Of a stretch of DNA of 64,000 nt, positions 7,966 through 23,602 are shown piece by piece; position 1 is the stretch's first letter; every line of letters starts with the position of its first letter. Source of the stretch: a virus; the IMG/VR virus record IMGVR_UViG_3300005936_000001, positions 121,257 to 185,256 of that record; one strand, 5' to 3'. The notes beneath the pieces were generated by a model. The model was not told the origin of the DNA. It saw only the letters and a list, made by a program, of their open reading frames with translations, and ran no database searches. Made by a program: the position numbers and the translations under genes.

Positions 7966-8175
7966 ATGCTAAGAAATAATCTGAATCAACTACTTAAACA
8001 CAAGGGGCAGTTGAACACAGGGGATAAAGTAAATTGTAGGTGTGAAGAGCATGCGTGTCATTTTAATAAGGTAACAATAAAGGGAGATACAGGTAATATG
8101 TTCCACTACCCTATAATATTTAGAAAAGGAGAGGGCTGGGTATTTAAAGGGGGGTGTCCTTACAACAATGTCTAA
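7966..8175 (+). CDS. KGQL-family protein 1
   Basis: 69 aa. First array member, behind promoter motif P4 and a leader hairpin, with AGGAG before the ATG. Core HKGQLNTGDKVN; variable window CRCEEHACHF is Cys/His-rich; it ends with GEGWVFKGG. Overlaps the next gene by 8 nt. Confidence 0.78.
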   Translation: MLRNNLNQLLKHKGQLNTGDKVNCRCEEHACHFNKVTIKGDTGNMFHYPIIFRKGEGWVFKGGCPYNNV

Positions 8176-8398
8176 TTATCTTTTAAGTAACAGAATGCAT
8201 CAGCCCATAAAGTATAAAGGGCAATTGAATGAGAAGGACGAGGTATTATGTACTGGTTGCGGTACAGGAGATCCCTGTGAGTTCGACGTACAGAAGATGC
8301 AGGAGAATCAAGGTACTGTAAGGGATATCGATGAGGACTACGGTGAACATGATATACGGTTTATAGAAGGAACGGGCTGGGTAATAGCGTGTCACTAA
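8168..8398 (+). CDS. KGQL-family protein 2
   Basis: 76 aa. Core YKGQLNEKDEV, with the usual Gly before Asp replaced by Lys. Variable window CTGCGTGDPCEF again has several Cys, so members 1 and 2 may form a metal-binding or disulfide loop. Confidence 0.78.
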   Translation: MSNYLLSNRMHQPIKYKGQLNEKDEVLCTGCGTGDPCEFDVQKMQENQGTVRDIDEDYGEHDIRFIEGTGWVIACH

Positions 8399-8411
8399 TA
8401 AAGGATAATAT

Positions 8412-8759
8412 ATGGATACTGGAAAATTATATAATAGATTAAGGCAGCCTATAAAGTATAGGGGGCAGCTGACTGTGGGAGATGCGGTATATAAAGAGGC
8501 AAGCAGTTTCCCTCTGATGGTTACAAAAGTTATAGGTAAGCTAGGGCGGGCTAAAAGGGACACAAAAATATATAATCTCAGCTTTGATAAAAATAATGGC
8601 TGGGAGTGGTCCACTCTATCACCTTATGAAGAAATAAGAGAGTTTGGCACATATGATGCCACATATGGTTCCTACTGGCTTGCTGACGATGAAGCGTCAG
8701 CAGGAACTCGCAGATATACACCTCCTCCGCAAGTTCAGGCTACATGGGGGAGAAGATGA
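8412..8759 (+). CDS. KGQL-family protein 3 with C-terminal extension
   Basis: 115 aa. Domain in residues 9-65 (YRGQLTVGDAVY, then FDKNNGWEW), followed by about 50 extra residues rich in Tyr, Ser and Pro (TYGSYWLADDE, RRYTPPPQ). The extension is not seen in typical members. Confidence 0.75.
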   Translation: MDTGKLYNRLRQPIKYRGQLTVGDAVYKEASSFPLMVTKVIGKLGRAKRDTKIYNLSFDKNNGWEWSTLSPYEEIREFGTYDATYGSYWLADDEASAGTRRYTPPPQVQATWGRR

Positions 8760-8795
8760 TACATATAATTTTAACTGTTATAAACAAAGGAAAGT

Positions 8796-9071
8796 ATGAA
8801 TAATTTATATAATAGACTGGGTAAGAAAATAAGGTATAAAGGACAGCTAAGTGTGGATGATATGGCATACCTGGACACAGATATACGTCGACGGAATAGT
8901 ATAGTTGTATATGGATTGAACGGCGCTTATGGAAACGGTAGAGATAGAGGAGGTTCCGAATATGTCTTGAACTTTTTCGATACGTCCGGATGGGTTTGGG
9001 AACTTACTTATAGTTTTTACTATGATATGTCCTCTTCCTCTTCTGAGTCGTCTTCTTCGGAGGAGGACTAA
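8796..9071 (+). CDS. KGQL-family protein 4 with Ser/Glu tail
   Basis: 91 aa. GGAAAG lies before the ATG. Core YKGQLSVDDMAY. After TSGWVWELTYSFYYDM comes a low-complexity tail SSSSSESSSSEED. Its stop and the next start overlap by one base. Confidence 0.75.
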   Translation: MNNLYNRLGKKIRYKGQLSVDDMAYLDTDIRRRNSIVVYGLNGAYGNGRDRGGSEYVLNFFDTSGWVWELTYSFYYDMSSSSSESSSSEED

Positions 9072-9289
9072 TGAGTACTGGAGATCTGTATAATGAAAAT
9101 AAGCAGAGGATAGTGCATAAAGGGCAACTATGTAAAGGAGATGTAGTTTACAAAGGTAGACATATGTCATGTAAAAGAAGAATACGTCTCCTTAAGGGGG
9201 ACATAGGTGAAGTCATAAGTCCTAAAGGTATAGTGTATGATATAAAGTTCGTAAAAGATTATGGCTGGACGTGGACTAAACGGAGATAG
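9071..9289 (+). CDS. KGQL-family protein 5
   Basis: 72 aa. Core HKGQLCKGDVVY; variable window KGRHMSCKRRIR is strongly basic; then LLKGDIGEVIS and FVKDYGWTW. Confidence 0.78.
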   Translation: MSTGDLYNENKQRIVHKGQLCKGDVVYKGRHMSCKRRIRLLKGDIGEVISPKGIVYDIKFVKDYGWTWTKRR

Positions 9290-9292
9290 CTA

Positions 9293-9571
9293 ATGAGTAT
9301 AATATATAATGAAATGAAGCAGCCCATTAAACACAAGGGGCAGATATGTAAAGGAGATATAGTATACATAGAGGCAGGAGGTGCCCCTTATAAGGTTACC
9401 GAATGTAAAGATGGCTCTGGAGTAATAAAAAGCTTCGTAGGGTTTAAACGTGATATAACATTTATAGAAGGGAAAGGCTGGAGGAATACAGGTTCCCGTT
9501 ACTGGAGTGCACCGAGCCTGACTCTTAATGGAACAACAATGAACATAGACACAGTCACATTTAGATTTTAA
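9293..9571 (+). CDS. KGQL-family protein 6 with short C-terminal tail
   Basis: 92 aa. Core HKGQICKGDIVY, variable window IEAGGAPY, then VTECKDGSGVI and FIEGKGW. About 30 extra residues (SAPSLTLNGTTMNIDT) follow the usual end. Its central part is close to members 7 and 5. Confidence 0.77.
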   Translation: MSIIYNEMKQPIKHKGQICKGDIVYIEAGGAPYKVTECKDGSGVIKSFVGFKRDITFIEGKGWRNTGSRYWSAPSLTLNGTTMNIDTVTFRF

Positions 9572-9583
9572 TAAGGAGTTATA

Positions 9584-10177
9584 ATGTATATAATGATAAT
9601 AGATATATTAATAGTTATAATAACTGCTCTGATCTTGATTTCTTCAGTAGTAGTATTATGGAGGTGCATTATTAATTTTATAATTCTGGGAAATCAGCAG
9701 GGACACATAGAGTGTGTTTCTAATAGTACGCCGGAGGAGACTAATTGTGTAAGCGTTGTGAACTATACATATACGAAAGTATATAATGAAATGAAGCAGC
9801 CAATTATACATAAGGGACAGTTAAATAAAGGAGATACTATATATTTTAATTCAGAAGATATTGATAGGTATATAGTTATTGAATGTAAAGATAACTGTAC
9901 GATAGTGGAAAACTTCCTAGGAATTAAGCGTGATCTGGAGTTTATAGACGGGAAGGGCTGGGTGTATAAAGATGGTCTGGCGTGGTATTTACAGCACGCT
10001 CAAGATCAGATGATGGCTGCTATGAATATCCCTGCCACATACCACACTACTCCGGAGACATACCGCTTTACTCCTGAGATACTCAATACATTCTACAATA
10101 GACAGTCGGGAGAGTTTTATAATGCAGAACAGCTGAGGGGTACAAGAGAATACTATATACAGGATACAGAAAGGTGA
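9584..10177 (+). CDS. Membrane-anchored KGQL-family protein 7
   Basis: 197 aa. Residues 2-35 are a long hydrophobic segment (IIDILIVIITALILISS and on), followed by a linker, then the family domain at about 65-130 (HKGQLNKGDTIYF, VIECKDNCTIV, FIDGKGWVY), then a Gln/Thr/Tyr-rich tail of some 60 residues. The fusion places the domain at a membrane, in the cytoplasm or outside depending on topology. GGAG lies before the ATG. Confidence 0.78.
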   Translation: MYIMIIDILIVIITALILISSVVVLWRCIINFIILGNQQGHIECVSNSTPEETNCVSVVNYTYTKVYNEMKQPIIHKGQLNKGDTIYFNSEDIDRYIVIECKDNCTIVENFLGIKRDLEFIDGKGWVYKDGLAWYLQHAQDQMMAAMNIPATYHTTPETYRFTPEILNTFYNRQSGEFYNAEQLRGTREYYIQDTER

Positions 10178-10375
10178 GTGTTTAAGATGTTAGCAAGAAA
10201 ATTTTCAGGGGTACAAATACACTGCGATAAATGTTATAGAAATATACGGGTGAGTAACAGCTTGACGGAAGAAGCCTTTAAACGTCTGGTGCGTAAGAGA
10301 ATATTCTGTGGAAGATGTATAAGCAGAAGGATGAACAGATCGGGTAAATGTCCCCGGCGTTTCGAATTTCAATAG
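10178..10375 (+). CDS. Small zinc-ribbon-like protein, 65 aa
   Basis: Two pairs, HCDKCYRN and CGRCISRR, form a C-x2-C...C-x2-C ribbon in a strongly basic protein (RRMNRSGKCPRRFEF), suggesting nucleic-acid binding. Not a KGQL-family member although embedded in the array. Start is uncertain: GTG at 10178 or ATG at 10187. Confidence 0.6.
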   Translation: MFKMLARKFSGVQIHCDKCYRNIRVSNSLTEEAFKRLVRKRIFCGRCISRRMNRSGKCPRRFEFQ

Positions 10376-10410
10376 TCATATATTAAATTAAGAGAAAGGG
10401 GGGAATCCCA

Positions 10411-10800
10411 ATGTGTCTGGAAGAACGAATTCTATTACTTAGAACAGGTCTTTATATATTACCTGCACTTATATTCAGTGTAAGTGTTTTGGCTTTAGTG
10501 GTTGAGGAGTTTGTTCGGGATTCTATAACTAACGTCTTTAACGCGAGAATGTGTAATATATTTAATGAAAAAGGACAAGTTATAAAGTATAAAGGGCAAC
10601 TGGTTAAAGGGGATGAGGTAAGATATGGTTACTCCCCCTATGACTATACGGTGTTCGTATTCAGTATAAAAGGTAGTAAAGGAATAGCAATACGAAATGC
10701 TAATACGTATAGTCTAAAGTATATTGAGGGAACGGGCTGGATGGCTTATACAGGTAAGAAGATATGGTGGATACTAAATAATGTATTCAGAGTTATTTAA
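10411..10800 (+). CDS. Membrane-anchored KGQL-family protein 8
   Basis: 129 aa. AAAGGGGGG precedes the ATG. A hydrophobic segment at about residues 8-32 (TGLYILPALIFSVSVLALVV) precedes the domain (YKGQLVKGDEVRYGY, FSIKGSKGIAI, YIEGTGWMAY). Second membrane fusion in the family, built on a different anchor from member 7. Confidence 0.77.
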   Translation: MCLEERILLLRTGLYILPALIFSVSVLALVVEEFVRDSITNVFNARMCNIFNEKGQVIKYKGQLVKGDEVRYGYSPYDYTVFVFSIKGSKGIAIRNANTYSLKYIEGTGWMAYTGKKIWWILNNVFRVI

Positions 10801-10814
10801 TAGAAAGGGGTATT

Positions 10815-11060
10815 ATGTCTAAAAAACGGTTATACAATATGCTGGGACAGCCCCTTAGACACAGGGGTCAGATAAGTGTGGGGGATGAGATATATTATTC
10901 ACCTCCTCCGTCTACGATGTTTCATGGGATTATAAGATCTATTAATAAGAATAAGGGAACAGTGGAAAACAAAGTAGACGCTACCGATGTGAATGATATT
11001 ACATTTACAAAAGAAGAGGGCTGGCGCTGGACGGATCACGAAGGTTATTCGTATGAATAA
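10815..11060 (+). CDS. KGQL-family protein 9
   Basis: 81 aa, with its own GAAAGGGG before the ATG. Core HRGQISVGDEIYY; variable window SPPPSTMFHG is Pro-rich; FTKEEGWRW closes the domain. Confidence 0.78.
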   Translation: MSKKRLYNMLGQPLRHRGQISVGDEIYYSPPPSTMFHGIIRSINKNKGTVENKVDATDVNDITFTKEEGWRWTDHEGYSYE

Positions 11061-11071
11061 AGGGAGGAGAT

Positions 11072-11314
11072 ATGAGTAAGAGTTTAAATTCTTTACATAA
11101 TTATAAGGGACAATACATTAAATATAAAGGACAGCTGACTATGGGGGATGAGGTGAGCTGTTGCCCCGGAGGAACTCCGGATTTTAAGGTAATAGAGCTT
11201 AAGGGCAGGATCGGTGTAATATGTTACACCGGTAGAATCACAAATCCTACAAAATATAAAATATACTTTAATAAAGATAGAGGTTGGGAATGGGACAGTC
11301 AGAGTTCTGGATAG
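11072..11314 (+). CDS. KGQL-family protein 10
   Basis: 80 aa, GGGAGGAG before the ATG. Core YKGQLTMGDEVS, variable window CCPGGTPD, then FKVIELKGRIGVICY and FNKDRGWEW. The GGTPDFKVIEL stretch resembles members 14 and 15, suggesting recent common origin. Last of the first block. Confidence 0.78.
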   Translation: MSKSLNSLHNYKGQYIKYKGQLTMGDEVSCCPGGTPDFKVIELKGRIGVICYTGRITNPTKYKIYFNKDRGWEWDSQSSG

Positions 11315-11358: not shown

Positions 11359-12189
11359 TTGGAAAAAGTAAAACGAACACCTGCTGGAGCTAATATGTGG
11401 AGTCATATTAACATGGGAGCATTCAATGGATGCGAATATGGTTGCAGATATTGTTATGCAAGTTGTCGTAAATTACAGTTAAAACAGATAAATAGTAAAA
11501 ATAAGTATATACCGACACCCCGTAAAATGTCCAGTATATTATCAGAACTGGCCCCGGGAAAAATAAAACTTATAGGTAAGCCAGCAACAATAATGTTCCC
11601 TAACACTCACGATATAACAGAGAACACTATTGATTACAGTATTGAGGTGATTAAGAAGATAATGGAGCGTAAGGCTGTAGCTAAGATTCTTCTGGTGACT
11701 AAGCCTAATCTTGGGTGTACCCGTAAAGTAATTGATAGGCTGAGGGACTATCAAAAAAATATCGAGATCAGAGTTACAATAGGTTCTAAGGACCAGAGTA
11801 TTCTGGACTTCTGGGAACCCGGAGCACCTGAATATGAAGAACGGATAGCGTGTCTTACCTATATGACAGGAGCTGGATTTCATACAAGTGTGTCTACGAT
11901 TCCAATGCTCGACAATAATATCGAAGCAGTTGTCAGAGATGTCCGTAACATAACATCAAGAGACATATGGATAGGGGTAATACGTCATCCCGAAGTCCGT
12001 ATAAAACGCAACACGGACAATGATGCTACATATATGGACAGGATGAATGAATTGCTGACTGAAAAGGATGAAGACAGGATTAAAGAATTGTATGCTAAGT
12101 ACGGGAAGGACAAAAAAATAAGATGGGCTTCCGATCTGAGGCCTTTACTGGGGCTGGAGCCCCTGAAAGAGCGGGGATTGGATATATAG
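11359..12189 (+). CDS. Radical SAM protein (spore photoproduct lyase-like motif)
   Basis: 276 aa. CEYGCRYCYASC near residue 27 gives the CxxxCxxC cluster that ligates a 4Fe-4S centre and cleaves S-adenosylmethionine. The CxxxCxYCYA form is shared with SplB and related phage proteins. Downstream, KPATIMFPNTHDIT and ILLVTKPN fit TIM-barrel strands, and GAGFHTSVSTIPMLDN a later strand. No accessory Fe-S domain is evident. The substrate is unknown; DNA or nucleotide modification is possible. The protein starts at an ATT/TTG-type position: the codon at 11359 is TTG, with AACAGGAG upstream. A strong terminator follows. Confidence 0.85.
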   Translation: MEKVKRTPAGANMWSHINMGAFNGCEYGCRYCYASCRKLQLKQINSKNKYIPTPRKMSSILSELAPGKIKLIGKPATIMFPNTHDITENTIDYSIEVIKKIMERKAVAKILLVTKPNLGCTRKVIDRLRDYQKNIEIRVTIGSKDQSILDFWEPGAPEYEERIACLTYMTGAGFHTSVSTIPMLDNNIEAVVRDVRNITSRDIWIGVIRHPEVRIKRNTDNDATYMDRMNELLTEKDEDRIKELYAKYGKDKKIRWASDLRPLLGLEPLKERGLDI

Positions 12190-12201
12190 TTTAAAAGGGC
12201 T

Positions 12202-12231
12202 GGGAGTGTACAACAAGTACACTCCCTTTTA
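12202..12231 (+). terminator. Rho-independent terminator after radical SAM gene
   Basis: GGGAGTGTAC (12202-12211) and GTACACTCCC (12217-12226) form a perfect 10-bp stem with loop AACAA, followed by TTTTATT. Confidence 0.92.
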
Positions 12232-12246
12232 TTATGAAGGAAAATT

Positions 12247-13485
12247 ATGGTTAAAAAGAGAAAAGGTCCAAAGCCTAAAACACAAGAACAGGCAACAGCT
12301 GATTTTATAAAAAAACACGGCAATAAGTTTAATTATTCAAGAATGGTTTATATAAACAGGATTACCAAAATACTTATAATATGTAATAAATGCCATACAG
12401 AATTCCTACTATCTCCTAAAAACCATTTGATGAATTCTGCAGGTGGATGTCCTAAAAGATGCTGGGCAAAGAGCACTAGGTTTACTGAAGAAGAATTTCG
12501 TAACAGGTGTTTCAAAGTACATGGTAATAATTATAGTTATTCTAAAGCTAAATATAAAGGCATTCATAAAAAGATTTTAATAATATGTAATGAATGTGAA
12601 AATATTTTTAAACAAAAACCCGATAATCATTTACAAGGGCAGGGTTGTCCACATGTATGCTATGATAATGAGGGAAAGCCAAAAATACTTAGTATTATTA
12701 GGAAAGGTTTAAAAATAAATGGTACTAATTATGATTATTCCATTTGTAAACGTATAACGTCAAAGAACAAGTATGGTAACTATAGGGTTTTTTTGTCAGA
12801 TATTATATGTAATGAATGTAAAACTGTTTTCACTAAAGACGTATATAATCATGTAGTTAATGGACAAGGCTGTCCATGGAAATGTTATATAGACCTTAAA
12901 GCTTCCCGTGGGAGTAACAAGAAATATAATACTCTCCTCGAGGATAATGACAGGTATTCTACTCCCGGTAAAGAGAATGTGACAGAGATGATGTTTGATA
13001 TTATCGGTAAATATGTGGGAAATGATTTCAACTTCCTATCGCTTCCGGGAAACGGCAGAGAACTGCTACGTATATCGAAAGCCTTTAATATAGATATAGA
13101 AAATAGCTTAGGTGTTGAGTTGTATCAGATGCAGTATCGTATACTACAACATTTAATTAAGAAGAATATGGGAATGGATATGCCTCTTTTAAAGGGAGAT
13201 GTCGATAAGCTTATTCTTGATGGAGAAATACATAACAAGTTCAGAGTCAGCCACTTAGACTATAACGGACCTTTAATACAAAGGAGATGGGACGCTATAA
13301 ATAAGTTGGTTGATAATACGGAGAAAGACGGATTAGTATTTATAACTCTGAATAATAAAGCGAGACACGGAACTAAGCTGAACAAAGTATTAGCTCCGGA
13401 TAACAGCTGTACTATAATGGATCAGAATTACGAAGGAATGCGTCATGCGAACATGACGACATTAGGTTTTCTAAAAACAAACTAA
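12247..13485 (+). CDS. Triple zinc-finger protein fused to a methyltransferase-like domain
   Basis: 412 aa. The N-terminal 215 residues hold three repeats of a KHGNKFNYSR-type lead-in plus zinc module (LIICNKCHTEFLLSPKNHL...CPKRC; LIICNECENIFKQKPDNHL...CPHVC; IICNECKTVFTKDVYNHV...CPWKC), a module common beside phage and giant-virus endonucleases. The C-terminal part (about 225-412) has FLSLPGNGRELLRI, SLGVELYQMQYRIL and FRVSHLDYNGPL, consistent with a Rossmann-type SAM methyltransferase with a DxNGP in place of DPPY (inference). The first half is clearly more AT-rich than the second, suggesting an acquired zinc-finger region joined to an older gene. AAGGA lies before the ATG. Confidence 0.7.
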   Translation: MVKKRKGPKPKTQEQATADFIKKHGNKFNYSRMVYINRITKILIICNKCHTEFLLSPKNHLMNSAGGCPKRCWAKSTRFTEEEFRNRCFKVHGNNYSYSKAKYKGIHKKILIICNECENIFKQKPDNHLQGQGCPHVCYDNEGKPKILSIIRKGLKINGTNYDYSICKRITSKNKYGNYRVFLSDIICNECKTVFTKDVYNHVVNGQGCPWKCYIDLKASRGSNKKYNTLLEDNDRYSTPGKENVTEMMFDIIGKYVGNDFNFLSLPGNGRELLRISKAFNIDIENSLGVELYQMQYRILQHLIKKNMGMDMPLLKGDVDKLILDGEIHNKFRVSHLDYNGPLIQRRWDAINKLVDNTEKDGLVFITLNNKARHGTKLNKVLAPDNSCTIMDQNYEGMRHANMTTLGFLKTN

Positions 13486-13501
13486 ACTAAAGGAACATAT
13501 C

Positions 13502-13777
13502 ATGCAGAAAAACAAAGAATTCGTAAACAAAATATTACGTGCCGTAGATCGTGGAGATGTTGCGGATCAAAATATTGACTGGAAATTTCTAGAATGCCCC
13601 GAAGAAATGATATCCTGTTGGAACGGTATTGAAGAAGATACTCTTGATGATGAACTCCTTCATTATGATATTGAAAAATCTGAAGATGGTGAAGAGTACA
13701 TAGTAACAGAGTGTCATACAGGGGGATGCAGTTGTGCTCCCGGAGTACTGGAATGTCTTGTTAAAGAAGTTGCATAG
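13502..13777 (+). CDS. Hypothetical acidic protein, 91 aa
   Basis: Strongly acidic with a Cys-rich end (TECHTGGCSCAPGVLECL). AGGAAC precedes the ATG. Contains CPEEMISCWNGIEED. No family recognised. The palindrome TCTACCATGGTAGA follows 16 nt after its stop. Confidence 0.6.
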   Translation: MQKNKEFVNKILRAVDRGDVADQNIDWKFLECPEEMISCWNGIEEDTLDDELLHYDIEKSEDGEEYIVTECHTGGCSCAPGVLECLVKEVA

Positions 13778-13792
13778 TCTAGAAGTAAAAAG

Positions 13793-13806
13793 TCTACCAT
13801 GGTAGA
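13793..13806. promoter_or_regulatory. Palindromic site TCTACCATGGTAGA, copy 1
   Basis: A perfect 14-bp palindrome flanked AAAAG/AAAT, 36 nt before the ATG of the membrane protein at 13843. Three more copies with similar flanks occur at 17592, 35773 and 57002. Candidate operator or short RNA hairpin. Confidence 0.6.
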
Positions 13807-13842
13807 AAATGGAGTAAACCCAAACAAACTAGGAGAGTAAGT

Positions 13843-14337
13843 ATGAAAGTAGTATTGTGTCTGATGTTAATAGCTCCGTTTCTATTATGGGTTGTTATAA
13901 GAACGACAAAATCCGCTAATTTTAAGATAGCTTGTGAAGGACATCTAAAAAGAGCCTCAGACGCTACCACAGTACCTTTAGCTGTACAGGAGCTGGAGAT
14001 AGCCCTTAAATATCTTAAAGACAATGAACTTACCAACGGGTATACCTCTATAACATTTGAGGACCCTTCTGAGGATATTCAGTTCTGGTACACGAATATA
14101 TTAGCGGCCAAAGAGGAGCTTAAGAAGATGCCTAAAGATGCGAATATGCTGACAAAAAGCAGCGTGTTGCTAAAATTAAGGGGGAGTATAATGTATTCCA
14201 AGGGGGAGAAAAGCGTATTAGTTCCCGAAGGAATAAGTGTATATCCGTTTAATGCGCTGTTCGCGATATTCGGATGGGGCACTTTAGTAATGCTTTTCTG
14301 CGGGGCTATAGGAATAATAATAATATGTAATGAATGA
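13843..14337 (+). CDS. Two-pass membrane protein, 164 aa
   Basis: Hydrophobic segments at residues 2-21 (KVVLCLMLIAPFLLWVVI) and about 140-162 (LFAIFGWGTLVMLFCGAIGI and on) flank a soluble domain with ACEGHLKRASDATTVPLAV, LEIALKYLKDN and SEDIQFWYTNILAAKEEL. The layout matches a conserved phage protein family of unknown function that I know only as hypothetical. AGGAGAG before the ATG; a palindromic site lies upstream and a terminator downstream, so it may be an independently controlled unit. Confidence 0.7.
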   Translation: MKVVLCLMLIAPFLLWVVIRTTKSANFKIACEGHLKRASDATTVPLAVQELEIALKYLKDNELTNGYTSITFEDPSEDIQFWYTNILAAKEELKKMPKDANMLTKSSVLLKLRGSIMYSKGEKSVLVPEGISVYPFNALFAIFGWGTLVMLFCGAIGIIIICNE

Positions 14338-14401: not shown

Positions 14402-14617
14402 ATGGCAGGGTACACATACACCTTATTTAATAAAATGAAGCAGGATATAAAGCATAGAGGACAGCTTAGTGTAGGAGATAATATAATGGTAAAAGAAACT
14501 GAGCTGAATGTACTACGTATTGAAGGGAATAACGGGACAGTAAGCTCCGATTGGCATTCATACTCTATAAAGTTTATAGAAGGAACGGGCTGGTTACTTA
14601 ACCCCAGTTCCATATAA
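14402..14617 (+). CDS. KGQL-family protein 11
   Basis: 71 aa, GAAGGAGACTAATTA before the ATG. Core HRGQLSVGDNIM, short variable window VKETELN, FIEGTGWLL. Close paralogue of member 13, with the same MAxYTY start and LNPxSx end. One-base overlap with the next gene. Confidence 0.78.
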   Translation: MAGYTYTLFNKMKQDIKHRGQLSVGDNIMVKETELNVLRIEGNNGTVSSDWHSYSIKFIEGTGWLLNPSSI

Positions 14618-16955: not shown

Positions 16956-16956
16956 T

Positions 16957-17157: not shown

Positions 17158-17158
17158 T

Positions 17159-17380
17159 ATGAGATTATTTAATGAAATGGGACAGCGCATAAAGTATAAG
17201 GGACAACTCAGTAAAGGAGATATAGTAAGGACTGTTCCCAAGTCAGTTTTCTATTACACAGTTGTTAAAGTAAGGGGAAGTACAGGCACAGCTGAACATA
17301 ACATTAAAAAGCCTTACATGTACCCGATACAGTTTAAAGAAGGAAGGGGCTGGTTAATACATGCGATATATGGCACATAA
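17159..17380 (+). CDS. KGQL-family protein 20
   Basis: 73 aa. Core YKGQLSKGDIVR, window TVPKSVFYY, FKEGRGWLI. Its last codons overlap the start of the frameshifted copy 21. Confidence 0.78.
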   Translation: MRLFNEMGQRIKYKGQLSKGDIVRTVPKSVFYYTVVKVRGSTGTAEHNIKKPYMYPIQFKEGRGWLIHAIYGT

Positions 17381-17587
17381 TACGATGAAACAACCTATCA
17401 CACATAAAGGACAGCTGTTAGCTGGTGATGATATATATATATACAAAGTGTTTTTATGGAGAGATGGTATGTAATGAAGGTAATTCATCTGGAGGGTAGC
17501 ATAGGTATAGTTCAGACTTCTATCACAAAGCGTGAGCACGAGATACACTTTGAAGACGAAGGCTGGATAGTAAGTACTAACATATGA
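17361..17587 (+). pseudogene. KGQL-family copy 21, frameshifted
   Basis: From ATG 17361 the frame gives MRYMAHNTMKQPITHKGQLL and GDDIYIYKVF, then stops at 17472. The rest of the domain (KVIHLEGSIGIVQ ... FEDEGWIVS) continues in the -1 frame from about 17456 to the stop at 17585-17587. One base missing from the run GTTTTTA (17450-17456) explains it; programmed -1 slippage is possible but the heptamer is imperfect. Confidence 0.75.
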
Positions 17588-17591
17588 AAAG

Positions 17592-17605
17592 TCTACCATG
17601 GTAGA
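17592..17605. promoter_or_regulatory. Palindromic site TCTACCATGGTAGA, copy 2
   Basis: Same AAAAG/AAAAT flanks as copy 1. It lies between the stop of frameshifted copy 21 and the ribosome site of member 22, 23 nt before its ATG. Confidence 0.6.
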
Positions 17606-17628
17606 AAATTCAGGAAAGGAGAATAAAT

Positions 17629-17850
17629 ATGGCTGCTTTTGGAGGTACTATATTACATAATATAAATGGACAGCCCCTTAGACATAAAGGACAGCTAAAC
17701 ATAGGGGATCAAATACGTCTACACGTCTACGATGTAAATAATAGAGCTGTTATTAAAAAACTAAGAAACAAACGAGGTGTAATGATAAAGCCCAAAACAG
17801 GTAGTAAGTATTTTACACTATACGTAGACGGGAAGGGCTGGTGCTGGTAG
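17629..17850 (+). CDS. KGQL-family protein 22
   Basis: 73 aa, with its own GGAAAGGAG. Start MAAFGGTILHNINGQPL differs from neighbours but resembles member 29. Core HKGQLNIGDQIR, window LHVYDVNNR, YVDGKGWCW. Strongly basic central region. Confidence 0.78.
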   Translation: MAAFGGTILHNINGQPLRHKGQLNIGDQIRLHVYDVNNRAVIKKLRNKRGVMIKPKTGSKYFTLYVDGKGWCW

Positions 17851-17851
17851 T

Positions 17852-18052
17852 ATGAGATTATACAATGAAATGGGACAGCAGATTAAACATAAGGGACAGC
17901 TTAATGTAAGGGACAAAGTAAGGGCCTACCCGAATGGTAGGAACATCTACACAGTGCTTAAAATAGCAGGGAACATCGCTAGGATTAAAAAAGTTCGTAC
18001 AGGTAGTATATATGTTGTGATGTATACAAAAGGAAATGGTTGGCGCTGGTGA
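17852..18052 (+). CDS. KGQL-family protein 23
   Basis: 66 aa. Core HKGQLNVRDKVR, window AYPNGRNIY, TVLKIAGNIARI, YTKGNGWRW. Basic, net positive like member 22. Stop and next start overlap as TGATG. Confidence 0.77.
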   Translation: MRLYNEMGQQIKHKGQLNVRDKVRAYPNGRNIYTVLKIAGNIARIKKVRTGSIYVVMYTKGNGWRW

Positions 18053-18264
18053 TGCATCCGTTATTTAATCTAATAGGACAGCCCATTAAACACAGGGGGC
18101 AGTTAAATAAAGGGGATAAGATATACCTTAGATCTACCAGTACTGTTTCTTACAAAGTCGTTGAGCTGGAAGGAGATACAGCTAAAATTAAAAATCTTTA
18201 TCGCCCTTTAAACTATACTATAAGGTATAGAAAAGGGCATGGTTGGTTTTGGAGGTCGATATGA
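18052..18264 (+). CDS. KGQL-family protein 24
   Basis: 70 aa from ATG 18052. Core HRGQLNKGDKIY, window LRSTSTVSY, KVVELEGDTAKI, YRKGHGWFW (His for Lys in the last motif). Confidence 0.77.
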   Translation: MHPLFNLIGQPIKHRGQLNKGDKIYLRSTSTVSYKVVELEGDTAKIKNLYRPLNYTIRYRKGHGWFWRSI

Positions 18265-18467
18265 GAAGAGAATATATGTTGTTTAATAAGTTAGGGCAGG
18301 TTATAAAGTATAGGGGACAGCTCTGTAAAGGAGATGAAGTAAGATGCCATAGCACTGATCTTGAAGTGTTAGAAGTAGAAGGGGATACAGGTAAACTTAT
18401 ATTCAACCATAACCCGTCAAATACATATAATATAAAATATATAAAAGGGAAGGGCTGGGTATATTAG
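18261..18467 (+). CDS. KGQL-family protein 25
   Basis: 68 aa from ATG 18261 with GGAGG close upstream, one of the few members with an evident ribosome site of its own. Core YRGQLCKGDEVR, window CHSTDL, EVLEVEGDTGKL, YIKGKGWVY. Confidence 0.78.
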   Translation: MRREYMLFNKLGQVIKYRGQLCKGDEVRCHSTDLEVLEVEGDTGKLIFNHNPSNTYNIKYIKGKGWVY

Positions 18468-18468
18468 T

Positions 18469-18684
18469 ATGAGTAGGGTATTATATAATAAGTTAGAGCA
18501 GCCCATTAAATATAAGGGGCAGCTCAGTAGAGCGGATACAGTATTACTTCATCCCACTAGATCTTTCCATTACTTAGTAATAGAACTAGAGGAAGACACA
18601 GGTAAGATTACACATGCCTGGGATAGGGATGTACATACAATAAAGTTTAAAGAAGGAACGGGCTGGGTCTGGGTGTCTGTATGA
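18469..18684 (+). CDS. KGQL-family protein 26
   Basis: 71 aa. Core YKGQLSRADTVL (Ala for Gly), window LHPTRSFHY, LVIELEEDTGKI, FKEGTGWVW. Confidence 0.78.
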   Translation: MSRVLYNKLEQPIKYKGQLSRADTVLLHPTRSFHYLVIELEEDTGKITHAWDRDVHTIKFKEGTGWVWVSV

Positions 18685-18905
18685 GGACACGACATATGTT
18701 ATACAATGGGATGGAACAGCCTATTGTATATAAGGGACAGCTTAGTCTGGGAGATATGGTAAGTTTAACTCCTGGAAGGGATTTCTTTTTCGAAGTCGTT
18801 GGGCTGCAAGGAGATAGAGGTATAGTCGAACATAAATTAAGTTTCGTGGTATATACTATAAAGCATGAAAAAGGGATGGGCTGGCTATTAATACACGAAT
18901 TATAA
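18681..18905 (+). CDS. KGQL-family protein 27
   Basis: 74 aa, ATGA-coupled to member 26. Core YKGQLSLGDMVS, window LTPGRDFFF, EVVGLQGDRGIV, HEKGMGWLL. Confidence 0.78.
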   Translation: MRTRHMLYNGMEQPIVYKGQLSLGDMVSLTPGRDFFFEVVGLQGDRGIVEHKLSFVVYTIKHEKGMGWLLIHEL

Positions 18906-19126
18906 GTGAATACATATTACATAACAAGATGGGACAGCCCGTTAAACACAAAGGGCAGTTAAGTGTAGGGGATGAAGTGAGTGTTACCCTGTGGGGGAAT
19001 ATAACCTTTACAGTTATCTCATTAAAGGGAGATACAGGTACATTAATCATACTGGATGTAGGTCCCGATAAAAACCCTATAATATATAAAAAAGGGTTGG
19101 GCTGGTATATACAAACATCCTATTGA
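18902..19126 (+). CDS. KGQL-family copy 28, ATA in place of start ATG
   Basis: Codons ATA AGT GAA TAC ATA from 18902 encode the expected N-terminus up to YILHNKMGQPVKH, but the family's usual ATG is ATA and no ATG, GTG or TTG is in frame before ATG 18929. The domain is otherwise intact: HKGQLSVGDEVS, window VTLWGNIT, YKKGLGWYI. Either ATA starts it weakly, the product begins at Met 18929, or the gene is silenced. Confidence 0.6.
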   Translation: MSEYILHNKMGQPVKHKGQLSVGDEVSVTLWGNITFTVISLKGDTGTLIILDVGPDKNPIIYKKGLGWYIQTSY

Positions 19127-19157
19127 TACTACTATACAACAGTAAAGGAGACTACTA

Positions 19158-19406
19158 ATGGAACAGGGAGTTTTACATAATATAAATGGACAGCCCATAC
19201 TATATAAAGGGCAGCTGAATAATGGTGACTCTGTATATAGAAAAAGATGGTCTGTGGGGAGGGCTGATATACTCCCGGCTAAAATAAAGAGTATAAAAGG
19301 GATTAAGGCAAATCTGCAGTATAATAACACAGCCTACACAATACCTATATTCTTTATAAGAGGAAGGGGCTGGATATGGGAATATAGAAGGGAGTATACA
19401 ATATGA
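19158..19406 (+). CDS. KGQL-family protein 29
   Basis: 82 aa, AAAGGAGACTACTA before the ATG. Starts MEQGVLHNINGQPI. Core YKGQLNNGDSVY, long basic window RKRWSVGRADILP, FIRGRGWIW plus a short tail. Confidence 0.78.
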   Translation: MEQGVLHNINGQPILYKGQLNNGDSVYRKRWSVGRADILPAKIKSIKGIKANLQYNNTAYTIPIFFIRGRGWIWEYRREYTI

Positions 19407-19669
19407 GTAAAGAAGAATATCTGAAAGGACACAAAGCGTCCGGACTGAAGGTAGGAGACTCTGTATTGGTTACAGGAGACTGCGAGAGCTTCGAGAAGGG
19501 CTGGAACAATATGTTTGTAGGTGGTATGAAGCAACATGTAAGTAAAGTCTATAAAATATGTATAGACAGAGATGACCAGGGATTTATGCTGGATCACGGG
19601 GCTCAAGTCCCGTATTACTATCCTTATTTTATCCTTAAAAAAGAAAGAAAGGTCTGGGGTATACGATGA
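19403..19669 (+). CDS. Conserved phage hypothetical protein, 88 aa, distinct from the KGQL family
   Basis: ATGA-coupled to member 29. GLKVGDSVLVTGD, GWNNMFVGGMKQHVSKVY and YYYPYFILKK fit a second small beta-barrel-like family found as hypothetical proteins in phages. It may share an SH3-like fold with the array but lacks KGQL and EGKGW. Function unknown. Confidence 0.65.
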   Translation: MSKEEYLKGHKASGLKVGDSVLVTGDCESFEKGWNNMFVGGMKQHVSKVYKICIDRDDQGFMLDHGAQVPYYYPYFILKKERKVWGIR

Positions 19670-19872
19670 CTACATTATATAACGAAATGCAACAACCTAT
19701 TATATATAGGGGACAGCTCTGTGTAGGAGATAAAGTATATACCAGCCCGGCTGGTATAAGTTTAAAAGTACTGAATATTAGAGAAGACGCAGGGAGGATT
19801 CTTGTATTGAATATAGGGAGTAAACACCCTATAATGTTTATAGAAGGAAAGGGCTGGTGTTACTATAAGTAA
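19666..19872 (+). CDS. KGQL-family protein 30
   Basis: 68 aa. Core YRGQLCVGDKVY, window TSPAGISL, KVLNIREDAGRI, FIEGKGWCY. ATGA-coupled to the non-family gene before it. Confidence 0.78.
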   Translation: MTTLYNEMQQPIIYRGQLCVGDKVYTSPAGISLKVLNIREDAGRILVLNIGSKHPIMFIEGKGWCYYK

Positions 19873-20068
19873 TATACTTAATGAACTGGAACAGCCCATT
19901 ATACACAAGGGACAGCTGTGTGAAGGAGATATGATACATTTTAACCGTGGGGGCGAAGATCGTTACGAGGTATATAGAATATGGAAATATGTAGGTAGAG
20001 CTAAATCCCTAAACAGTACTGTTGTACGCCGAATAAGGTTTATAAAAGGAAGGGGCTGGGTCTGGTGA
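19865..20068 (+). CDS. KGQL-family copy 31, ATA in place of start ATG
   Basis: ATA AGT AAT ATA from 19865 opens the expected frame (ILNELEQPIIHKGQL); no ATG, GTG or TTG start lies before the core. Window HFNRGGEDRYEV is unusually long, then FIKGRGWVW and stop at 20066. As in copy 28, the TATAAGT context looks like an ATG-AGT start mutated by one base. Confidence 0.55.
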   Translation: MSNILNELEQPIIHKGQLCEGDMIHFNRGGEDRYEVYRIWKYVGRAKSLNSTVVRRIRFIKGRGWVW

Positions 20069-20069
20069 T

Positions 20070-20269
20070 ATGATGTATAGAATATACAATGAGATAGGAC
20101 AGATCGTTAAACACAAAGGGCAGTTAGATGTAGGAGATACAGTATACGTCTGTAGCTGCCCCCATAAAGTTATTGAGTTAAAGGGAACACAGGTAGACTT
20201 AAATTTCTTAACAGGCTTAGTATATACCCTATAATATATATAGAAAGAAGGGGCTGGGTGACAGTATGA
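20070..20269 (+). pseudogene. KGQL-family copy 32, frameshifted
   Basis: ATG 20070 gives MMYRIYNEIGQIVKHKGQL, GDTVYVCSCPHKVIELKG, then the frame runs into LVYTL-stop. The true continuation (NTGRLKFLNRL ... YIERRGWVTV) is in the -1 frame, ending at TGA 20267. One base lost in AAGGGAAC (20181-20188) relative to the family's AAGGGNAAC accounts for it. Confidence 0.78.
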
Positions 20270-20481
20270 GCTTTAGACTATACAATAGAAATAGACAGCA
20301 GATAATACATAAGGGACAGGTCAGTGTAGGAGATAAGGTAAGTGGTACTGCAAACTGGAACTATCCTGATTACGAGGTAACTAACATAAATAATAATACA
20401 GGTACAATTAAACATATAATGGATCACAATACGTGTGATATAAAATATGTAGAAGGACAGGGCTGGGGAGGAGAAGCATAA
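20266..20481 (+). CDS. KGQL-family protein 33
   Basis: 71 aa. Core HKGQVSVGDKVS, window GTANWNYPD, YEVTNINNNTGTI, YVEGQGWGG. Confidence 0.78.
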   Translation: MSFRLYNRNRQQIIHKGQVSVGDKVSGTANWNYPDYEVTNINNNTGTIKHIMDHNTCDIKYVEGQGWGGEA

Positions 20482-20678
20482 TGTATAATCATATGAGACA
20501 ACGTATAATGTATAAAGGACAGCTGGATTTAGGAGATTATATACGCGCCGGAACAGATAGCGGTCTTAATTATAAAGTTATTAGAATAAAAGGAAATAGA
20601 GCTAGAGTACAAAGCAGATTACATAGCAATATATATAATCTGGGGTATACAGAAGAAAGGGGCTGGATGTTCTTATGA
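20481..20678 (+). CDS. KGQL-family protein 34
   Basis: 65 aa, starting right at MYNHMRQRIMY. Core YKGQLDLGDYIR, window AGTDSGLNY, KVIRIKGNRARV, YTEERGWMF (Glu-Arg for Gly-Lys). Confidence 0.77.
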   Translation: MYNHMRQRIMYKGQLDLGDYIRAGTDSGLNYKVIRIKGNRARVQSRLHSNIYNLGYTEERGWMFL

Positions 20679-20869
20679 AAATATATAATGCGTTAAAACA
20701 GCCCATTAGATACAAGGGACAGATATGTAAAGGAGATAAGGTTAGAGTTAGCCTTGAAGGAGGTATGCACCCTGTTATTGAGTTAAAGGGAAATGAAGGT
20801 AGGATTAAATATACATATGGTATAATGCCTATAGTGTTTACAGAAGAAAGGGGCTGGTTATTGACATGA
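20675..20869 (+). CDS. KGQL-family protein 35
   Basis: 64 aa, among the smallest intact members. Core YKGQICKGDKVR, window VSLEGGMH, PVIELKGNEGRI, FTEERGWLL. Shares the EERGW ending with member 34. Confidence 0.78.
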   Translation: MKIYNALKQPIRYKGQICKGDKVRVSLEGGMHPVIELKGNEGRIKYTYGIMPIVFTEERGWLLT

Positions 20870-21105
20870 TATACAAACTATACAATGCATTAAAACAGCC
20901 CCTTATACACAAAGGGCAACTATGTAACGGAGACATAGTACACTTCACTGATGGGGGCATAGCCAGTAATTATATAGTTATGGACCTGAAGGGAAGCTTC
21001 TGTACAATTCAACATGCGTGGGATAAGTATAGATACTACGACCATGTAGAGTTTACAGAAGGAGTGGGCTGGGGCTGGGAATCAGAAGGAGGATCGAGGG
21101 CATGA
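20866..21105 (+). CDS. KGQL-family protein 36
   Basis: 79 aa. Core HKGQLCNGDIVHF, window TDGGIASNY, IVMDLKGSFCTI, FTEGVGWGW plus a Glu/Ser tail. From here to member 43 most copies have an aromatic after GDxV. Confidence 0.78.
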   Translation: MIYKLYNALKQPLIHKGQLCNGDIVHFTDGGIASNYIVMDLKGSFCTIQHAWDKYRYYDHVEFTEGVGWGWESEGGSRA

Positions 21106-21317
21106 TAACTAAAATGTATAATGAAATGGGACAACCTATAAAGTATAAGGGACAACTCTGTCTGGGAGATATAATATATTTCGCTAAAACCCACGACTTT
21201 GGGGGATATAAAGTTATTAAATTAGAGGAAAATACAGGTATAGTTAAATATACAGAGCTCGGGGATGAATTCCCTGTATCCTTTACAAAAGTGGGCTGGG
21301 GGTATGTGACGAGATGA
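21102..21317 (+). CDS. KGQL-family protein 37
   Basis: 71 aa. Core YKGQLCLGDIIYF, window AKTHDFGGY, KVIKLEENTGIV; the last motif is shortened to FTKVGWGYV. Very similar to member 38. Confidence 0.78.
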   Translation: MITKMYNEMGQPIKYKGQLCLGDIIYFAKTHDFGGYKVIKLEENTGIVKYTELGDEFPVSFTKVGWGYVTR

Positions 21318-21529
21318 TATCTAAAATGCATAATAAACTAGGACAGATTATAAAGTATAGAGGACAGCTCTGTGTAGGAGATGTAGTCTGGTTCACTAAT
21401 AACAGCAGTTTCGGTGATTATAAAGTTATTAAATTAAAAGGAAATACAGGTACAATTAAACATATAATGCACGGGGATTTATTTGATGTAAAGTTTGTAG
21501 AAGGAACGGGCTGGGGGTATGTAATATGA
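21314..21529 (+). CDS. KGQL-family protein 38
   Basis: 71 aa. Core YRGQLCVGDVVWF, window TNNSSFGDY, KVIKLKGNTGTI, FVEGTGWGY. Members 37-38 share ISKMHNK/ITKMYNE starts and GWGYV ends, suggesting recent duplication. Confidence 0.78.
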   Translation: MISKMHNKLGQIIKYRGQLCVGDVVWFTNNSSFGDYKVIKLKGNTGTIKHIMHGDLFDVKFVEGTGWGYVI

Positions 21530-21747
21530 TATACAGCCTATACAATGAGATGAGACAGACTATTAATTACAAGGGGCAACTCAGTGTAGGAGATATAGTA
21601 TCTTATACTTCCAGTAGCAACGCCTGTGATTATAAAGTTATCGAACTGAAGAAAAACATAGGTATGATTAAGAACACACGGAATAAAAATGTATACTACT
21701 GTATTAGATATATAAAAGGAACGGGCTGGGTGGAGGTAACGACATGA
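21526..21747 (+). CDS. KGQL-family protein 39
   Basis: 73 aa. Core YKGQLSVGDIVSY, window TSSSNACDY, KVIELKKNIGMI, YIKGTGWVE. Confidence 0.78.
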   Translation: MIYSLYNEMRQTINYKGQLSVGDIVSYTSSSNACDYKVIELKKNIGMIKNTRNKNVYYCIRYIKGTGWVEVTT

Positions 21748-21989
21748 GAAAACTTAGTTTGATGTACAATGAAATGGGACAGCGTATAAAATATAAGGGA
21801 CAGGTTAGTGTAGGAGATAAGATACATTTTATAAGCAGCGGACATATAATATATAAGGTTATAAATCTAAAAGATGATATAGGCATAATTGAACGCTATA
21901 AAGATACATGGGATATAGACTTTGTAGAAGGTAAGGGCTGGGGCTGGTGGTCCTTCTTGGGGGAGTCATATGACATACGTATTGTATAA
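21744..21989 (+). CDS. KGQL-family protein 40
   Basis: 81 aa. Core YKGQVSVGDKIHF, window ISSGHIIY, KVINLKDDIGII, FVEGKGWGWW and an extra tail (SFLGESYDIRIV) that overlaps member 41 by 20 nt. Confidence 0.78.
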   Translation: MRKLSLMYNEMGQRIKYKGQVSVGDKIHFISSGHIIYKVINLKDDIGIIERYKDTWDIDFVEGKGWGWWSFLGESYDIRIV

Positions 21990-22203
21990 TGCAATGAAGC
22001 AGCCCATTAAACATAGAGGACAACTGAGTAAAGGGGATTTAGTGCATTTCAGTGACGATTGGACCCGTATGTTTAGAGTTATCCAATTAAAGGATAATAT
22101 AGCTGAAATTAAACTAAAGCATTCCAGCTACTGTTACTTCATACAGTTTGTAGAAGGAACGGGCTGGGGCTGGGGAGTAGAGTATGATGTTCTTAATACA
22201 TAA
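21970..22203 (+). CDS. KGQL-family protein 41
   Basis: 77 aa. Core HRGQLSKGDLVHF, window SDDWTRM, FRVIQLKDNIAEI, FVEGTGWGW. Overlaps member 42 by 20 nt, the same arrangement as at its own start. Confidence 0.78.
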   Translation: MTYVLYNAMKQPIKHRGQLSKGDLVHFSDDWTRMFRVIQLKDNIAEIKLKHSSYCYFIQFVEGTGWGWGVEYDVLNT

Positions 22204-22396
22204 TGAACTGGGACAGCCCGTTAAACACAAGGGTCAGATCAGTAAAGGGGATTTAGTGCATTTTGAGGATGGCACCGACAATTACTACATAGTAGTCGCA
22301 TTAAAGGTATGTACAGGTGAAATTAAACATATACTTTCCAAATATGCTTATAGTATACAGTTTAAAGAAGGAGTGGGCTGGGGGTATGGAACATGA
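22184..22396 (+). CDS. KGQL-family protein 42
   Basis: 70 aa. Core HKGQISKGDLVHF, window EDGTDNYY, IVVALKVCTGEI, FKEGVGWGY. Confidence 0.78.
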   Translation: MMFLIHNELGQPVKHKGQISKGDLVHFEDGTDNYYIVVALKVCTGEIKHILSKYAYSIQFKEGVGWGYGT

Positions 22397-22605
22397 CATA
22401 TGTACTGTATAATAGAATGAACCAGCCCGTTAGACATAAGGGACAGATCTGTCTGGGGGATATAATACGTTTTAAGGAAGACAATACATGTGATTATAAA
22501 GTTATCCGATTAAAAGAAGATAAAGGTAACATTAAAAATATCCGTAATGGATATAACTTTCATATGTATTTTATAGAAGGAAAGGGCTGGTGCTGGAAGA
22601 CATGA
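22393..22605 (+). CDS. KGQL-family protein 43
   Basis: 70 aa. Core HKGQICLGDIIRF, window KEDNTCDY, KVIRLKEDKGNI, FIEGKGWCW. Confidence 0.78.
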   Translation: MTYVLYNRMNQPVRHKGQICLGDIIRFKEDNTCDYKVIRLKEDKGNIKNIRNGYNFHMYFIEGKGWCWKT

Positions 22606-22817
22606 CATGTCAACTGTTTAATGAAATGAATCAATGTATTAGATATAGAGGTCAGTTAGTTGTAGGAGATGAAGTAACGTGTTACGGTGTTCCTCTCAAA
22701 GTTGTCCGGATAACAGGAGACAGAGGAGGAGTTGAATATATGAATGACACTGATCACAGTGTACATCTTATAAGGTTTATAGAAAGAGTGGGCTGGAGAT
22801 ATATAGGACAGGAGTAA
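22602..22817 (+). CDS. KGQL-family protein 44
   Basis: 71 aa from ATG 22602, an ATGA overlap. Core YRGQLVVGDEVT, short window CYGVPL, KVVRITGDRGGV, FIERVGWRY. Last of the uninterrupted run. Confidence 0.78.
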   Translation: MTCQLFNEMNQCIRYRGQLVVGDEVTCYGVPLKVVRITGDRGGVEYMNDTDHSVHLIRFIERVGWRYIGQE

Positions 22818-22900
22818 TATTTACAGCCCGGATAACATAATATCTTTGAAAGAAGTTACTACAAAGGGTATATTTATATAATATAAAAAGGAAATATACA

Positions 22901-23104
22901 ATGGAAATAGATTTTAAAAGTGTTCCCCCTAAAGCGTGGATAATCCTATCTCTCGCTATCTTCTTACTGTCTGTGGCAATAGGCTATTCCTTTATTATGG
23001 GATGGAGTAAAGTAGGGACAGTCAAGAAGGGCTGGAGTAAGGTGGGGCTGGAAGAGCATGCTGTAGAGAAAGAAGTCAATAAGATATGGAAAACTAAGAA
23101 GTAA
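22901..23104 (+). CDS. Small membrane-anchored protein, 67 aa
   Basis: AAAAGGAAATATACA precedes the ATG. Residues 12-33 (WIILSLAIFLLSVAIGYSFI) form one hydrophobic segment, followed by a tandem GWSKVG repeat and a basic tail (NKIWKTKK). Not a KGQL member. Function unknown. Confidence 0.62.
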   Translation: MEIDFKSVPPKAWIILSLAIFLLSVAIGYSFIMGWSKVGTVKKGWSKVGLEEHAVEKEVNKIWKTKK

Positions 23105-23143
23105 CTATATATTATATATATAGTGTTTATAACAGGAGCTATT

Positions 23144-23368
23144 ATGCTATTTAATATATATAATGAGACGAGACAACTTATTAGACACAGGGGCCAGATA
23201 TGTGTAGGAGATACAATATCTGATAATCCCGGTCTTTTCGTAACAGCTATGCGAGTTGCATATGTTAATAACAAGAAGGGAATTGGACAAGCGGTGTCAA
23301 CTATGGGAGGACCCAGTATACCTCTGACATTCGTTAAAGAGCGGGGCTGGTTTTTTGTAATATGTTAA
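23144..23368 (+). CDS. KGQL-family protein 45
   Basis: 74 aa from ATG 23144 with AACAGGAGC upstream. Core HRGQICVGDTIS, window DNPGLFVTAM, then RVAYVNNKKGIG replaces the usual KVIELKG, and FVKERGWFF. Members 45 and 46 form a divergent pair. Confidence 0.75.
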   Translation: MLFNIYNETRQLIRHRGQICVGDTISDNPGLFVTAMRVAYVNNKKGIGQAVSTMGGPSIPLTFVKERGWFFVIC

Positions 23369-23380
23369 ACAGGAGCTATT

Positions 23381-23602
23381 ATGCATTGTACATTATATAA
23401 TGAGATGGGGCAGCATGTTAGACATAAAGGACAGATAAGTGTAGGAGATTATGTATCTAATAATCCTGAAGCTTGTATAAATAGACCTATGGAAGTTACA
23501 TATATTAATGACAAAAAGAATCGTGGAGAAGCATCGTCTTATACAGGATGTGTAGCCCTGATATTTGATGAAGAGTCGGGCTGGTTTTACGTAATATATT
23601 AA
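23381..23602 (+). CDS. KGQL-family protein 46
   Basis: 73 aa, AACAGGAGC before the ATG as in member 45. Core HKGQISVGDYVS, window NNPEACINRPM, EVTYINDKKNRG, FDEESGWFY. Last array gene, closed by a terminator. Confidence 0.76.
   Translation: MHCTLYNEMGQHVRHKGQISVGDYVSNNPEACINRPMEVTYINDKKNRGEASSYTGCVALIFDEESGWFYVIY

Follow-up and report, generated by a model that had tools for sequence, protein, structure and literature searches.

Why does a bacterial virus carry dozens of copies of one tiny gene? Arrays of dozens of one tiny domain have been remarked on in large phages since at least 2017, and they are unexplained. The question is raised here by IMGVR_UViG_3300005936_000001, the IMG/VR record of a large uncultured bacterial virus. 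The analyzed stretch of 64,000 nucleotides (hereafter the window) corresponds to the bases 121257–185256 of this 185,256-base record. The 185-kb record is classed as linear and is possibly incomplete (jumbo phages exceed 200 kb). Between positions 7966 and 23602, the window contains an array of small paralogous genes, which belong to the largest such family found, with 49 copies in the record. The reading favored here, at slightly less than an even chance, is that they encode intracellular binders that are expressed together and differ in their targets, probably serving host takeover or counter-defence.

Copies of the Family

A profile hidden Markov model (HMM) was built from the obvious family members and run over the six frames of the window. 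It detects 50 segments at E ≤ 3.2e-5, corresponding to 48 copies, two of which are split in two by frameshifts. The next-best matches are at the level of chance (E > 3). Forty-six copies are located at 7966–23602 and two at 44630–45433, all on the plus strand, as the initial annotation, made from the sequence alone, had stated. It had also described the 46 copies as tandem and the family as filling about 12 kb. Their number stands, but they do not form an unbroken run: blocks of 10, 4, 30, and 2 copies are separated or interrupted by unrelated genes, and the domain proper spans about 9.7 kb. In the whole record, a 46-row profile detects 51 segments, or 49 copies.

Of the 46 array copies, 42 have a standard start codon and an undamaged frame; frameshifts affect two others, and the remaining two apparently start at ATA. 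Contigs from other metagenomes, 99.99–100% identical to the record, contain the right part of the array, the outlying copies, and the frameshift at 20 kb. The agreement of these independent contigs indicates that the array is not an artefact of a single-sample assembly, and chimeric assembly was rejected on the same grounds.

Conservation and Predicted Fold

The copies average 34% identity (5th–95th percentile, 25–44%). In the family alignment, G16, Q17, D22, G64, and W65 are invariant, and N6 and Q10 are conserved in more than 90%. Mean column entropy is 1.4 bits at residues 4–24, in contrast to 3.4 bits at residues 25–33. In the strands 43–48 and 54–60, entropy alternates between low values at presumed inward sites and 3.1–3.7 bits at presumed outward sites, these sides being assigned from the alternation itself and not from coordinates.

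AlphaFold2 was run with the family alignment on two members, one basic and one the most acidic (net charge −10). The model of the basic member has a predicted local distance difference test score (pLDDT) of 93.0 and a predicted template modeling score (pTM) of 0.80, and DSSP assigns strands to its residues 23–25, 34–40, 43–48, 54–60, and 64–67 (pLDDT 93). The acidic member (pLDDT 95.2, pTM 0.81) shows the same five strands in the same order. Structure prediction of several members, proposed as a check in the initial annotation, thus gives one answer for both, and the family domain is confidently predicted to be a small compact five-stranded barrel. The models and the alignment suggest one constant frame with variable surfaces across the copies.

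The barrel had been expected to be SH3/KOW-like. The small all-β barrel is recovered (pLDDT 93 and 95), but Foldseek gives no significant structural match, the best PDB E-values being 0.56 and 0.37 with TM-scores of about 0.3–0.5. Among the best of these non-significant matches, SH3, Spt5 KOW, Tudor, and PWWP domains come up repeatedly. SH3/KOW-like is the likeliest fold class, although the domain is not a proven relative of SH3. It resembles the SH3-like barrels (SH3, Spt5 KOW, Tudor, and PWWP domains, and the engineered fynomers) in having five short strands within about 65 residues. It differs from them in that the TM-score is at most about 0.5, E is above 0.3, and no sequence match is seen.

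These fold matches bring up another reading. The members could be nucleic-acid or RNA-polymerase binding factors of the KOW/Tudor/PWWP-like kind. The phage encodes its own multisubunit RNA polymerase, and each member would adjust how particular transcripts, of phage or host, are transcribed or how stable they are. It is the strongest of the alternatives because of the charge bias (pI, the isoelectric point, is above 8 in 34 of 47 domains) and the weak KOW/Tudor resemblance. The two outlying copies between RNA polymerase genes would fit it, as would the zinc-ribbon expansion of phage G, proposed to supply transcription factors or DNA-binding proteins (PMC7824862). Nevertheless, net charge ranges from −10 to +12 across members, and the acidic member folds equally well. 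Fold matches in the PDB all have E of at least 0.3, and in the library scans any KOW family match stays below its cut-off. The exposed face shows variability and not a conserved basic patch. A role in nucleic-acid or polymerase binding is regarded as improbable, with some weight left to it.

Selection on the Copies

The seven closest copy pairs, with synonymous divergence (dS) of 0.4–0.8, were analyzed by pairwise codon likelihood. The ratio of nonsynonymous to synonymous rates (ω) is 0.58–1.01 for these pairs, a value biased downward by their choice for high protein identity. Codons were then classed by variability in the other copies, with the class boundary at 2.6 or 2.0 bits. The two-class fit gives ω of 0.38 at conserved and 1.84 at variable codons with the 2.6-bit boundary (p = 5e-4), and 0.25 and 1.50 with the 2.0-bit boundary (p = 0.012). 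At 2.6 bits, all leave-one-pair-out runs have p ≤ 0.019, and dropping the codons within three of a gap leaves 0.34 versus 1.55 (p = 0.007). As a control, a pair of ordinary capsid-like paralogues from this phage has ω of 0.06. These values are good, not final, evidence and suggest diversifying selection at the family-variable sites. At the codon level, it would be the exposed sites, not the core, that are selected to change, a pattern that agrees with a set of binders. The scaffold with varied surfaces that the initial annotation had proposed gains support from both the AlphaFold models and this analysis.

Several observations weigh against this reading. The selection signal hangs on the class boundary and on the handling of gaps: without the codons near gaps, the 2.0-bit boundary gives 0.24 versus 1.33 (p = 0.065), and the top four pairs alone give p = 0.062. 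There are seven pairs only, and misalignment of loops could inflate the signal. The independent contigs are 99.99–100% identical, and thus selection at the population level is not measurable. Two copies that are probably dead persist in the array. The absence of the family from related phages, described in the next section, is also weaker than it appears, since the contigs of the two closest relatives (69% portal identity) are too short to cover the array region.

The two frameshifted copies, together with the evident tandem duplication, could also be explained by mostly non-adaptive genome filling. Tandem duplication would have followed an increase in capsid size, headful packaging would allow the copies to stay, and each copy would have little function. 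A capsid-size increase followed by tolerated duplication is the view of jumbo-phage growth taken in 2017 by Hua et al., who regard such arrays as products of genome enlargement through duplication (PMC5646251). However, 44 of the 46 array copies are open across the whole domain at about 34% mean identity, whereas a simple simulation leaves 7% stop-free after 30% neutral substitutions. In addition, ω at conserved sites is 0.24–0.38, and the invariant residues are kept in all aligned copies. Mostly non-adaptive genome filling is distinctly unlikely to be the explanation.

Distribution of the Family

The comparison with databases that accompanied the initial proposal was carried out, and no characterized family is matched. 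When 45 members were compared with Pfam, PHROG, NCBIfam, and PADLOC, no match was above a curated cut-off or convincingly repeated; the matches seen are limited to individual members (E ≥ 0.002) and, in one case, to two members (E = 0.007). The conserved strap and the GxGW motif match no family in these libraries, and a PDB sequence search gives no convincing family match. Motif scans of IMG/VR meet the family only in this same phage from other samples. No member is seen in GenBank phages and plasmids, and none was found in GTDB genomes by a scan with exact consensus peptides, which is insensitive.

The portal protein groups the phage with Vibrio phages D69, D148, and D181 and Salmonella phage Arash (28–32% identity), and with IMG/VR contigs. 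These Vibrio and Salmonella phages share a genome size of about 181–188 kb and the related portal with the present phage, and Arash additionally shares the multisubunit RNA polymerase and the NAD-salvage (nicotinamide adenine dinucleotide) genes. Unlike the present phage, D69 and Arash contain no copy of the array family; D148 and D181 lay outside the profile search. No member is present in 41 portal-related phage records, several of them 165–201 kb long, which include no positive control. An all-against-all comparison of the open reading frames (ORFs) in stretches from five portal relatives reveals no comparable cluster. These facts suggest that the family is lineage-specific and found in one phage.

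The same comparison bears on whether the members might be virion or morphogenesis components, for instance small decoration proteins or internal proteins forming a mosaic. The array lies directly upstream of the structural module on the same strand, and small β domains are common in virion decoration. Yet the portal-related phages have the portal without the array family, and no member starts with the leader MNKxAYYxGYMxKEA seen in proteins of the neighboring region. Decoration calls for one or a few sequences in high copy number, not for 49 that differ, and diversifying selection of this kind is not expected inside a particle. A structural role is hard to credit.

Comparison with Other Phage Arrays

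The initial annotation knew of no described phage system in which one small domain occurs in tandem in such numbers. This is contradicted by phages G and 121Q. Hua et al. reported in 2017 that in these jumbo phages more than 30 similar genes lie in tandem arrays, which they read as genome growth by duplication (PMC5646251). phAPEC6 likewise carries such an array (PMC7247149). In 2021, Iyer et al. described zinc ribbons expanded to about 35 copies in phage G, with transcription or DNA binding as their proposed role (PMC7824862).

The 121Q genome (KM507819) was examined as stretches, and copies were counted with an HMM of its own family. It contains 26 copies of a family of about 70 amino acids with the motif LGTNYQE, whose tandem array lies at 155.7–162.2 kb. 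The main run has 22 overlapping copies head to tail on one strand (155.7–160.8 kb), with a mean identity of 25%. Judging from its sequence, the family is probably helical, and the array is probably the one of more than 30 genes reported by Hua et al. The 121Q family is present in 35 GenBank records. Copies turn over: a phAPEC6 stretch contains 27, versus 22 in the 121Q main run, and the best matches are 40–100% identical. Arrays of different small domains recur within the 121Q genome, as two further paralogue families are seen there (seven copies of MHKEYY... and seven of a family of about 120 amino acids; 133.4–134.8 kb and 160.8–176.8 kb).

Like the 121Q/Asteriusvirus array, the present one consists of tens of strongly diverged paralogues of about 70 amino acids on one strand, with stop-start overlaps and outlying copies. 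Unlike it, the domain is unrelated, the copies number 49 here and 26 there, and the family is found in one phage here and in 35 GenBank records there. The present family has no HMM match in 121Q or phage G, and its alignment to the 121Q family by hhalign has a probability of 0.3%. Like the zinc ribbons of phage G, it is a tiny domain that has undergone a very large, lineage-specific expansion in a giant phage; the domain of phage G differs in binding zinc and in its proposed role in transcription or DNA binding. The phage G array was not recovered in the 240 kb of G scanned. As an array, the present locus is of the same kind as those of G and 121Q, having at least 20 tandem small paralogues (46, with 30 in one block) on one strand with touching genes (28 of 30), while the protein family is not the same. 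Arrays of this kind are already known; new here are the domain, its copy number, and the evidence of selection.

Organization of the Array

The features of the array and its surroundings are listed in Table 1. Block 2 looks like a duplicated two-gene unit. The DNA of the copies starting at 14617 and 15087 agrees to 98% in the first 15 codons and is unlike in the remainder. This is the only pair that suggests gene conversion or mosaic duplication. The tree of copies is saturated, which makes a simulation of recombination between copies uninformative. A diversity-generating retroelement was considered and rejected: the reverse transcriptase PF00078 is absent from the possibly incomplete record, and control genomes are positive.

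Table 1. Positions of the family copies and of the genes around them. Positions are those of the window unless stated otherwise.
Feature	Position	Strand	Description and basis
Array block 1	7966–11314	+	10 copies; HMM, each E ≤ 2e-19; gene table
Block 1, first five copies	7966–8175, 8168–8398, 8412–8759, 8796–9071, 9071–9289	+	
Block 1, last five copies	9293–9571, 9593–10177, 10411–10800, 10815–11060, 11072–11314	+	
Copies with C-terminal tails	8412–8759, 8796–9071	+	Block 1
Copy with hydrophobic N-terminus, domain, and C-terminal tail	9593–10177	+	Block 1
Copy with hydrophobic N-terminus and domain	10411–10800	+	Block 1
Unrelated genes between blocks 1 and 2	11359–14337	+	Include two small unknowns
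Radical SAM protein	11359–12189	+	Pfam PF04055, E = 6e-9
Zinc-finger protein, 412 amino acids	12247–13485	+	PF14311, E = 3e-8
Array block 2	14402–15296	+	4 copies: 14402–14617, 14617–14868, 14869–15087, 15087–15296; HMM
Small unrelated genes separating blocks 2 and 3	15321–16100	+	ORF list; 15321–15692 without Pfam match
Array block 3	16114–22817	+	30 copies head to tail, 6.7 kb; HMM, gene table, junction count
Frameshifted copy	17361–17587	+	Two HMM segments in different frames; sequence
Copy without ATG/GTG/TTG before the motif	18902–19126	+	Domain at 18911; ATA AGT overlapping upstream TAA
Unrelated gene inside block 3	19403–19669	+	
Copy without ATG/GTG/TTG before the motif	19865–20068	+	Domain at 19868; begins ATA AGT, overlapping the end of the upstream gene
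Frameshifted copy	20070–20266	+	HMM; identical break in independent contig
Array block 4	23144–23602	+	2 copies: 23144–23368, 23381–23602; HMM, gene table
Outlying copy	44630–44953	+	Between RNA polymerase genes; HMM, E = 3.8e-16
Outlying copy	44966–45433	+	C-terminal family domain; HMM, E = 7.9e-16
49th copy	21657–22046 of the record		Outside the window; adjoins glycosyltransferase-like genes; C-terminal tail; HMM

In block 3, 28 of the 30 junctions overlap or lie within 2 nucleotides, and 15 are of the ATGA type. A Shine-Dalgarno-like 4-mer is seen near the GxGW codons ahead of 24 of the 30 next starts, and these codons likely often double as the ribosome-binding site of the next gene. No terminator-like site of at least 10 pairs was found in block 3; a strong one (10 pairs) is located between blocks, at 12202–12226. 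Sigma-70 promoter-like sites in the array are not in excess (76, versus 67 in shuffles with a standard deviation of 9), and an RNA-element search of the window found no Rfam family. From the overlapping junctions and the lack of a strong terminator-like site in block 3, we infer the layout of co-transcribed, translationally coupled genes.

In the two copies that begin with ATA AGT, sister genes read ATG AGT or ATG AGC at this place. Coupled re-initiation at AUA is possible, and so is the loss of the start. The frameshifted copy at 17361 is probably dead. The outlying copy at 44966 has an N-terminal Cys-rich repeat (NC..C.NC..C), and its residues 1–88 match phrog_15341, a family of unknown function (E = 8e-25).

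The two members with hydrophobic N-termini might be taken to indicate that the array supplies small toxins or superinfection-exclusion proteins, as a cassette used against competing phages and not the host; the lineage specificity and variability of the family would agree with it. Membrane segments and signals are lacking in most members, however, and neither immunity partners nor toxin-like motifs were seen, which makes such a cassette very improbable.

Proposed Function

The preferred reading, a set of intracellular binders, can be spelled out as follows. A lineage-specific gene family would have grown by duplication, and its members would be small cytoplasmic binders of a single domain, produced together from a small number of polycistronic transcripts with translational coupling. 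In each of them, a constant frame, consisting of the strap N...QPIx[YH][KR]GQL..GD at the N-terminus, the core of the barrel, and the closing GxGW, would be combined with a variable face made of residues 25–33, 48–56, and the outward positions of the strands 43–48 and 54–60. Tandem duplication would make copies, selection for new surfaces would drive their divergence, and some copies would die. The likeliest use would be the binding of many host proteins, or of one fast-changing defence or housekeeping set, during takeover of the cell. Copies with hydrophobic N-termini would act at the membrane. The copy number, the layout, the confident barrel prediction, the constraint on the frame, and the absence from the searchable relatives are observations, and diversifying selection on the variable positions has support short of proof. 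Co-expression, protein binding, and the host or defence targets are what we infer here. Nothing in the data singles out a role as small-molecule sponges, which the initial annotation had listed among its examples.

A stricter version can be speculated, and it is rather doubtful: a fixed genome-encoded repertoire of about 49 natural binders, built on one mini-barrel with a constant strap and a variable face, expressed as a set, each aimed at a different host protein. Duplication and positive selection would have diversified this repertoire, and that it amounts to a virus's own equivalent of an engineered binder library is likewise an unlikely though conceivable idea. The size of the family, the confidently predicted domain, and the codon-level evidence move the subject from a vague remark on genome growth by duplication to a proposal on targets that can be tested. 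Should the members be binders, the array would amount to a natural list of host proteins that are worth attacking, and it would supply stable binding scaffolds of about 65 residues.

Other Features of the Genome

The genome contains a second, unrelated family of seven small Cys-containing paralogues at 108.8–114.9 kb of the record, upstream of the window. Their motif is M[SN]EFQG...GCT..NC..C..C...KKWI.WQ.RRI, and five are in tandem with overlapping ends. Within stretch L012, they are located at 3795–4016, 4239–4451, and 8728–9916.

Downstream of the array (23642–51088), many proteins carry the N-terminal leader MNKxAYYxGYMxKEA, for example those at 23642, 23996, 25284, 43950, 46657, 47057, 50040, and 50726. 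It is perhaps a capsid-targeting propeptide cut off by a head protease. The protein at 29144–30103 has long runs of short repeats of the left-handed β-helix (hexapeptide) type.

The β and β' parts of the RNA polymerase are fused in one protein of 1998 residues (37954–43950 and 47755–50043). Apparent inteins are seen, with LAGLIDADG at residues 1203–1373 and a further Hint-like insert in 47755–50043. A pair of NAD-salvage genes precedes the array: a nucleotidyltransferase-Nudix-like ORF at 3212–4159, and a nicotinamide phosphoribosyltransferase-like ORF at 5135–6568, whose homologue in phage Arash is annotated as nicotinamide phosphoribosyltransferase.

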